NCBI RefSeq assembly: GCF_030756675.1
Contig: NZ_JAVBXD010000037.1
Span: forward strand, 1 to 44,047
From: Bacillus multifaciens
GTDB taxonomy: Bacteria; Bacillota; Bacilli; Bacillales; Bacillaceae_G
Direction of reading: 5' to 3'
DNA: 44,047 nucleotides
Under the pieces are notes generated by a model. That model saw only the letters and a list, made by a program, of their open reading frames with translations. It was not told the DNA's origin and ran no database searches. The position numbers and the translations under genes are program-made. Shown here in pieces: positions 17,198 through 19,764 of the stretch (within the stretch, counting starts at the first letter, position 1; each line of letters opens with the position of its first letter).

Positions 17198-17548
17198 TTG
17201 AATTATGTAGTTATACAAAAATATAGGACGAATTATCCGAATCCTATTAGCTTAGTTCAGGGACAGTCATTTATTATTGGGGATAAATATAATGGACCTG
17301 AAAAATGGGATAATTGGTACTTTTGTATAACAGTAGATAAAAACAGTTCAGGTTGGGTTCCAGCGCAACTTATCCAATGGAAAGGAACAGAAGGTATTGC
17401 GAAGGGAAATTATACTGCAAAAGAGTTGAATGTTGATGAAGATGAACATCTGGTCGGGTTAAAAGAACTTAACGGATGGATTTGGCAAAGAGTTCTTACT
17501 CTAGAAAAAGGATGGGTACCAAAAGAAAATGTAAAGCTTACTATATAA
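17198..17548 (+). CDS. SH3-like domain protein, two repeats
   Basis: 116 residues from TTG 17198 after AAGAAGGGG. Two similar halves, each ending in a GW pair: GWVPAQLIQWKG (about 51-62) and GWVPKENVKL at the C-terminus, typical of small bacterial variant-SH3 domains. There is no signal peptide, so it should be cytoplasmic. It is followed 63 bases later by the interrupted histidine phosphatase gene and then by HAD and GNAT genes, likely an ancestral operon. Confidence 0.7.
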   Translation: MNYVVIQKYRTNYPNPISLVQGQSFIIGDKYNGPEKWDNWYFCITVDKNSSGWVPAQLIQWKGTEGIAKGNYTAKELNVDEDEHLVGLKELNGWIWQRVLTLEKGWVPKENVKLTI

Positions 17549-17686
17549 ATAGAAAGAAGAGCCATAAATCAGAGAAAATAAAAATTTGCAAGTAACGGGG
17601 AGGCTGAAGCAGTGATTTATGTAGTTAGACACGGACAAACAGATTTGAACAAAGAAGGAAGATTACAAGGAAGAGCGGGTTTACCT

Positions 17687-17945
17687 GTCAACTACCCACC
17701 ACTTAAACGCTAACATGTTTTGAAGTGGGGGCTTGAAAAAAGCCCTGGTTGTCTAGCTTTAGTCTTTGATAGACTCCGTTCGTAGGTTGCATACCCAAGA
17801 ATGATTCCCTAGTTCTTGGCTCTATGGTGGCTCTGTAACAGTTCTGATTGGGAAGGAACGGTCAACCACATGCCTTCTTGTATAAGAAGTTGCCAACACC
17901 TACAAACATTGGCGAAGGGAAACAAACTCTTAGGAGGGACAAAAC
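17687..17945 (+). ncRNA. putative omega-RNA scaffold of the IscB element
   Basis: The 259 bases between the left end and iscB have no long reading frame but several stems: GGGCTT/AAGCCC (17729-17745), AGTCT/AGACT (17761-17775), CCAAGAA/TTCTTGG (17795-17819) and CTTCTT/AAGAAG (17876-17891). Known IscB omega-RNAs lie in this position and carry their guide at the 5' end, taken from the sequence outside the left end. The guide here would be the last 16 or so bases of the phosphatase 5' part (aagagcgggtttacct, 17671-17686). Position and structure are seen; function is by family analogy. Confidence 0.6.
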
Positions 17946-19193
17946 ATGCGTGTATTTGTCAAGAATTTAAGGGGAGAACCGCTCATGCCATGCAGTTATC
18001 GTAAGGCGCGGCTTCTTCTCAAACAAGGAAAAGCAAAGATTATGGGATACACTCCGTTTACCATTCAATTGCAATATGCCACAGGTGAAGCGGTGCAATC
18101 CGTTACAATCGGTGTTGACAGTGGAGCAAAATATATCGGCATTGCGATTACCACTGAAGACAAAGTGTTAGCAAAAGGAACCATTGAGTTACGTCAAGAC
18201 GTCAAAGATAATCTTACATTGAGAGCTACATTACGCAGAGGTAGAAGACAACGAAAAACAAGGTATCGCAAAGCACGTTTTCTCAATCGGAAAAAGAAAG
18301 AAGGATGGTTGCCACCATCGATTCAAAGCAAAGTGGATAACCAAATTCATTGGATTGAAATATTCAAGTCACTCTTACCTTCACCAAAAGTGATTGTTGA
18401 AGTAGGGAAATTTGATGCGCAAAAGCTAAAAAATCCTGACATACAAGGGATCGAATATCAACAAGGAGATGCTTTTGGTTTTTGGAATACAAGATATTAC
18501 GTATTTGCGAGAGATAACTATACGTGCCAAATTTGCAAGAAACAAGGTGGCATCTTGCATACGCATCATATTATCGAACGCTGCAATGGTGGTTCAGATA
18601 TGGCAGATAATCTTGTAACAGTGCATGATGAATGTCATCAAAAATTTCATCAAGGAAAAATCAAACATGTTTTTAAGAAACCAAAACAATATAAAGAGAC
18701 CGCCTTTATGAATCTATTGCGTCTTCAGATCATAAAACGTTTGGATTGTGAAATTACGTATGGTAGTTACACCACGCCAAAGAGAAAAGAACTTGGATTA
18801 GGCAAAACACATATAAATGACGCAATTGCGATTACAAGTCCCAAACATTTGCAAGAATATGATCAAAGTGGTGAATTTCGCATCAAGCAATTTAGAAAGA
18901 AAAAACGGTCCCTACATGAAGCAACCGCAAGAAAAGGAAGGAAAACAAAGAATACAAGTGCAAAACGGAATAATAAAAATACACCGCATATAGATGGAAT
19001 CTATTTGGGTGATAAAGTGAAAGTGTTTGGTCAAATAGGATTTGTGACAGGGTTTACAGGGAAAATGATATACGTACAAGATATACATGGGCATTATATA
19101 CAAAATTCTTCCAAATCTTATAAACAAGTGAAGATATCGGATATAGAATGTATACACCATACGAACAATTGGAAGTTCTTACAAATCAGTTAG
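17946..19193 (+). CDS. iscB: IscB RNA-guided nuclease (RuvC-HNH)
   Basis: 415 residues. Order: PLMP domain (1-50, GEPLMPCSYRKARLLLKQGK), RuvC-I IGVDSGAKYIGIAI (D58), arginine-rich bridge helix LRRGRRQRKTRYRKARFLNR (96-115), RuvC-II VIVEVGKFD (E152), and HNH with CQIC (194-197), THHII (H207/H208) and DECHQKFH (230-235). RuvC-III HINDAIAIT follows (H289, D292), then a basic linker and a C-terminal KOW/SH3-like part GDKVKVFGQIGFVTG (about 355-369), the region that contacts RNA and target in known IscB. All catalytic residues are present, so it looks active. ATG 17946 follows AGGAGG. IscB is the ancestor group of Cas9; it cleaves double-stranded DNA guided by omega-RNA. Confidence 0.9.
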   Translation: MRVFVKNLRGEPLMPCSYRKARLLLKQGKAKIMGYTPFTIQLQYATGEAVQSVTIGVDSGAKYIGIAITTEDKVLAKGTIELRQDVKDNLTLRATLRRGRRQRKTRYRKARFLNRKKKEGWLPPSIQSKVDNQIHWIEIFKSLLPSPKVIVEVGKFDAQKLKNPDIQGIEYQQGDAFGFWNTRYYVFARDNYTCQICKKQGGILHTHHIIERCNGGSDMADNLVTVHDECHQKFHQGKIKHVFKKPKQYKETAFMNLLRLQIIKRLDCEITYGSYTTPKRKELGLGKTHINDAIAITSPKHLQEYDQSGEFRIKQFRKKKRSLHEATARKGRKTKNTSAKRNNKNTPHIDGIYLGDKVKVFGQIGFVTGFTGKMIYVQDIHGHYIQNSSKSYKQVKISDIECIHHTNNWKFLQIS

Positions 19194-19764
19194 GCTATGC
19201 TTAACCGAAATTCATCCCCACCTTACCGCTGGGCTCTTGCCCGTCACGCGCTTGAAGATGGAAACTTCTTTCGGAAATATGTTAAATGAACATGGTATAG
19301 AGCAAGCGAAAGGTTTAAGAGAAAAATTGAAAGATATAAAATTTGACTACATATTTTCATCTCCGCAAGAAAGAGCAATTCAAACAGCGGGGATAGCAAC
19401 AGGTATAAAAGTAATAATTGATGAAAGACTTAATGTTTTTGACTTAGGAGAAGCTGACGGACTAAAAAAAGGTGAAGTGAAAATAGCTGGAGCTGTTCCT
19501 GATTCTAGTGTTTATAATGGCGTTGAAGAGCCTAATAGCTATGTGAAAAGAGTTTTTGGTTTTATGAATGAACTTGAAAGTAAATATGGCAAAAAAGAGT
19601 TAAATATTTTATTATCCGGACATAGATGTACAACAGGTTGTATTGCTGCTTATTTTGAAGGGATACTGGAAGACAGTAATATTTTAAGAATTTCATCAAA
19701 TAATGGAGAATATAAAGTATACAACTTCAAATAATCTCAAAATTTTGAAATAAGGAGAAATTTT

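Follow-up and report, generated by a model that had tools for sequence, protein, structure and literature searches.

The closest described relatives of the locus considered here are the IscB nucleases of the OMEGA systems, among them OgeuIscB and OrufIscB. According to the available part of PMC9640706, the guide of IscB RNAs, about 16-17 nt long, lies at their 5' end, and OgeuIscB has D61, E193, H340 and D343 as catalytic residues and NNRR as target-adjacent motif (TAM); measured TAMs of NTAAA for OrufIscB and of TTGA for DtIsrB are given in the passages at hand of PMC13180657 and PMC9581776, respectively. Regarding their association with transposases, only a few HEARO nucleases are found near TnpA, and matches to the HEARO RNA family RF02033 occur in 65% of the 5' regions (PMC9755519, relevant sections), and a logic of nuclease-guided retention has been described for the IS200/IS605 nucleases (PMC11870625, in the part available).

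The window investigated, the whole stretch of 44,047 nucleotides of Bacillus multifaciens DNA, contains on its + strand at 17687..19281 a segment of 1595 bp that, judged by its identity, ends and target motif together, is very probably an intact, non-autonomous IS200/IS605-type IscB (OMEGA) element. The IscB element is real, complete and ordinary; it is an individual not known before, of a kind already known. Continued activity in this strain, which we infer from the sequence, is less certain than the identity, the ends and the target motif.

The iscB gene (17946..19193, +), preceded by a Shine-Dalgarno-like AGGAGGG read from the sequence at 17932..17938 (+), encodes a protein of 415 aa which matched NF040563, the NCBI model of the RNA-guided endonuclease IscB, with 360.4 bits against a cut-off of 175, and in which the Pfam families RRXRR (PF14239) and HNH (PF01844) were detected. 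Residue alignments placed the PLMP motif at residues 12-15, within EPLMPC at residues 11-16, and revealed a split RuvC domain with D58, E152, H289 and D292 and an inserted HNH domain with H207 and H208, together with C194, C197, C230 and H231. The residues L13, M14 and P15 are invariant in an alignment of 10 sequences, and the catalytic and zinc residues vary neither in this alignment nor in one of 18 sequences, the window protein included. The first-pass annotation had proposed an intact PLMP domain, RuvC residues D58, E152 and D292 and HNH residues H207/H208; all were found, with H289 completing the RuvC set, in a full-length reading frame that has no in-frame lesion and keeps every invariant residue. 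In the two printed alignments with solved IscBs, 11hr_A has identical residues at all named catalytic positions and 9k30_A (TbaIscB) has different residues at D58, H207 and H208, the latter perhaps reflecting an inactivated construct. Residues 297-415, the candidate C-terminal WED/TAM-interacting region, align with those of relatives, and the AlphaFold model (pLDDT 48.6, pTM 0.27) is too poor to show a fold there.

Investigation of the distribution of IscB revealed proteins above the curated cut-off in nine of 299 genomes in the order of genome G355, taken as Bacillales, and in none of 14 control genomes; two or more IscBs are held by six of the nine genomes, and at least seven by one of them. 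Intact IscBs are not rare. The proteins closest to the window IscB (64-70% identity) are encoded on four metagenome-bin contigs, and those of loci L225 and L226, from two genomes in the order of G355, share 57% and 52% identity with it. No DNA match to the element was detected among 72,556 plasmid records, 77 of which gave a protein match, always under 60% identity, or among phage records; the best long match of a viral relative was 47% (L120), higher identities being confined to short HNH stretches. The element was not described in the titles or abstract openings among the literature matches listed. One genome contains two distinct iscB matches separated by 395 bases (G892:C1:3311305-3313537), and in a Lactobacillus bin (L007, 1342-1653) pieces of a group II intron (RF02001, RF01998) were found at a distance of about 2 kb from an IscB element.

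A structured region in the position of the omega-RNA had also been noted, and running the covariance model gave a match to HEARO (RF02033) above gathering at 17687..17927 (+), with 99.3 bits against a gathering cut-off of 83 and an E-value of 2.3e-19 over the full length of the model (1-211); this is the sole Rfam match above gathering in the window. In an alignment of 16 related HEAROs, of which six belong to a single group of near relatives, 24 of the 36 consensus pairs have both partners changed in one or more of the sequences, a covariation to be read as support for the fold and not as a probability. The window RNA keeps 34 of these 36 pairs, the other sequences 31 to 36, and its first stem has a mismatch that is common to several relatives. 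Regarding match strength, 6 and 8 HEAROs were found in two Agrilactobacillus-group genomes, 13 of these 14 over the cut-off and two of them with lower scores than that of the window. HEARO above gathering was not found at six of the 19 fetched IscB loci. Among loci of this kind, L225 (G085, 186-515) has an IscB with neither a HEARO above gathering nor an upstream GTCAAC, despite a similar right end and a TTAAA flank, and its guide RNA may have been lost or be very different.

The left end of the element was placed by position 1 of the HEARO model and by copies with unrelated left flanks, and the right end by host homologues and comparison of right flanks; the coordinates of the complete element given in the first-pass annotation thereby proved exact. 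The left terminus is GTCAAC at 17687, the same as in the 11 Agrilactobacillus-group copies with a left end that could be read (L013 and L019 yielded none). The elements of Agrilactobacillus composti and a related Lactobacillus bin start, in these 11 copies, with GTCAACCGTGACCC after unrelated left flanks and end ahead of TTGAA, TTGAC or TTAAA. The right terminus is 19281, ahead of a host-derived TTAAAT. DNA folding suggests a candidate subterminal hairpin at each end. The left one has a z of -2.6, and the right one (19205..19274, +), with an outer stem of CCGAAA at 19205-19210 and TTTCGG at 19269-19274, is weak evidence alone, because its z is -1.6 and 14 of 200 shuffles fold into an equally stable structure; its sequence is common to relatives, similar right ends being present in L225, L226 and L002.

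Regarding the transposase, no tnpA was detected in the window by tblastn, where the queries (one Y1 transposase, one TnpB and three ORFs assigned to Y1 with a simple rule) had no match at E<=1. The test is insensitive, given that in its control two of the three matched the known tnpA at E<=1 and one of the three under 0.01; Pfam analysis of 16 distinct window ORFs named no transposase. The description of the locus as an iscB without tnpA stands to this extent, and did not hold as a peculiarity, since it is the usual state of IscB according to the available part of PMC9755519 and to the plasmid relatives. In an incomplete gene table, none of six annotated plasmid relatives has a tnpA listed within 1.5 kb, and for a seventh stretch no features are given. 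Y1 transposases are present in the genomes of L225 and L226, and the ends of the tnpA-tnpB element at L111 have no visible match to the IscB ends.

These results also bear on a reading in which the same IscB element would be structurally intact and silent, an old insertion that has lost its transposase or its transcription and persists in a dispensable gene. In its favour, the element is present once within the window, its HEARO score lies below those of all 11 relatives in one comparison (109-165 bits), a crude scan from 17400 to 17687 found no sigma-70-like site on the + strand just upstream, and tnpA was not found in the insensitive search above. Such a relic is nevertheless rather unlikely, as the ORF is full-length and retains all invariant residues, the RNA fold is nearly complete and both ends are intact.

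The intact element was inserted into a histidine-phosphatase gene, directly 5' of TTAAA and in frame. The 5' piece of this gene (17612..17686, +), identified by translation and homologues, consists of 25 codons with a GTG start, and its frame runs 8 codons into the element before a stop; the 3' piece (19282..19734, +) matches PF00300 (2.8e-20), the profile being matched from position 25 onward, and has homologues likewise. The two pieces join in frame, with no bases lost and no target duplication, as in IS200/IS605 tnpA-tnpB elements, and TTAAAT is host sequence because the pieces meet in this way. A scan with a sequence pattern over 40 loci (L060-L099), covering the homologues that fit the pattern, retrieved eight uninterrupted histidine phosphatases, all of which have GL(P/E)LNE across the insertion point, and the junction sequence is TTAAA in seven of them and CTAAA in one. 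The nearest sampled genomes have best long matches to the window of 72-76% identity, in a region named parC-like from its translation; as no close sister strain with the exact empty allele was detected among the sampled genomes, homologues at 72-76% were used. A further genome sample, seemingly of another order, gave a best match of 68%. The disruption of the phosphatase gene, and a TAM and guide that can be read from the junctions, add to what had been noted before. Directly upstream of the split gene, a small SH3-domain protein (PF07653) is encoded at 17198-17548.

Comparison of the flanks revealed TTRA directly to the right of the element in all 12 independent elements with a recognisable right end, that of the window included, and the information content of the first five positions in these 12 is 2.0, 2.0, 1.0, 2.0 and 1.35 bits. 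L225 and L226, selected because their proteins are the closest among 19 fetched, are also flanked by TTAAA, which brings the count to 14 of 14 scored elements. In the left flanks (10 sequences) there is no common motif, no position exceeding 1.1 bits. The count leaves out L001, L003, L004, L015 and L019, whose right ends were not recognised; L014, which shares its insertion with L010; L208-L214 and L220, where the right ends were not resolved; and also L219, L221-L224 and the plasmid relatives L113-L119. In L215-L218, which belong to other subfamilies, ATGAA was found by eye to be common at the right end instead. The element at L215 ends directly before ATGAA, the apparent start of what we take, from its reading frame, to be a tsaD-like gene.

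A motif constant in 14 of 14 scored elements could also belong to the element, as its conserved right terminus, and not be a host target or TAM. This is very unlikely, as TTAAA stands at the same place in seven of the eight element-free host homologues and the host reading frame needs the codon. It is further contradicted at the insertion site of L011, where the right flank aligned with two homologous places in the sister genome, from TTGAG in L108 (93% over 636 bases) and from TTGAA in L109 (79% over 198 bases); since both places carry TTGA in the aligned right flank, TTGA at this site is host sequence. The left junction of L011 does not align exactly, L108 having 6 additional bases there and L109 a larger number, and the left flank of L006 had no match in the sister genome.

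With TTRAA taken as host sequence, the constant TTRA of the right flank and the lack of a motif in the left flanks indicate that the guide most likely comes from the left flank and that TTAAA at 19282..19286 (+), TTRAA in the clade, is most likely the 3' TAM, which would also be the former insertion target, as right flanks of relatives and uninterrupted host homologues suggest. The 5' position of the guide in known IscB RNAs (PMC9640706, available part) would make the host sequence at 17671..17686 (+), found once in the window, the 16-nt guide of the omega-RNA; with the guide there, the right flank TTAAA would supply the motif required on the 3' side of a target. The predicted motif agrees with the measured TAMs of OrufIscB (NTAAA) and DtIsrB (TTGA), as far as these are given in PMC13180657 and PMC9581776.

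The element would most likely be maintained in the following way. A Y1 transposase encoded elsewhere would move it as single-stranded DNA, and read-through from the host gene would make an omega-RNA whose 5' end is the host sequence of the left flank. IscB with this RNA would cut a guide match followed by 5'-TTAAA (TTRAA in the clade), which is present only in the empty allele, and recombination with the occupied copy would then put the element back; the occupied allele would be spared because GTCAAC, and not a TAM, follows the guide match there. IscB together with TnpA from Geobacillus has reportedly been tested by Meers et al. in 2023. If such elements settle only 5' of TTRAA and aim the nuclease at the empty site, the junctions of the clade would record the TAM, and one genome would be enough to read off the TAM and the guide that any such element natively uses. 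At the phosphatase locus the element would behave as a gene drive, in which intact alleles brought in by transformation or transduction are cut and converted. We put forward this reading of the junctions and the locus tentatively, as a possibility on the doubtful side.

Domestication of the IscB, its guide serving the host, for example against intact phosphatase copies or incoming DNA carrying the phosphatase, is permitted by an anatomy in which host coding sequence occupies the guide position, and is most improbable given ends that are those of a mobile element, the ordinary genes among the neighbours examined and the eight homologous loci, all uninterrupted.

Knowledge of the IscB family is unchanged by this element. 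Since this IscB is compact (415 aa) and undamaged and comes with a natural guide and a predicted TAM, its activity and the model of empty-site cleavage are nevertheless directly testable, and comparison of junctions offers a cheap prediction of TAMs for uncharacterised IscBs.

Regarding the known systems, the element has the traits of the IS200/IS605 type in its fixed TTRA on one flank, the absence of target duplication and host halves that meet in frame. With tnpA-tnpB elements such as that at L111 it would share the logic of nuclease-guided retention (PMC11870625, in part), whereas these elements carry tnpA, which was not found with the window element, and their TnpB RNA comes from the right end (PMC9956272, available part). 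The IscB/OMEGA systems (NF040563; OgeuIscB, OrufIscB) are alike in domain order, catalytic residues, a 5' HEARO omega-RNA and an A-rich motif on the 3' side of the target; about 495 aa are found in solved IscBs (7utn and 7xht, for example), in contrast to 415 here, and the TAM of the window element, unlike that of OgeuIscB/OrufIscB-type systems, is predicted from junctions. L226 (genome G764, same order as G355) is near-identical at the left terminus and at the 3' end of the RNA and similar at the right end, and has a TTAAA flank, but occupies a different insertion site and its HEARO is below gathering. The elements of Agrilactobacillus composti and the related Lactobacillus bin (L005-L015, L019, L020) differ in a protein identity of 46-50% to that of the window and in their many copies per genome, and share with the window element the GTCAAC left end, the HEARO and a right flank of the TTRAA type.
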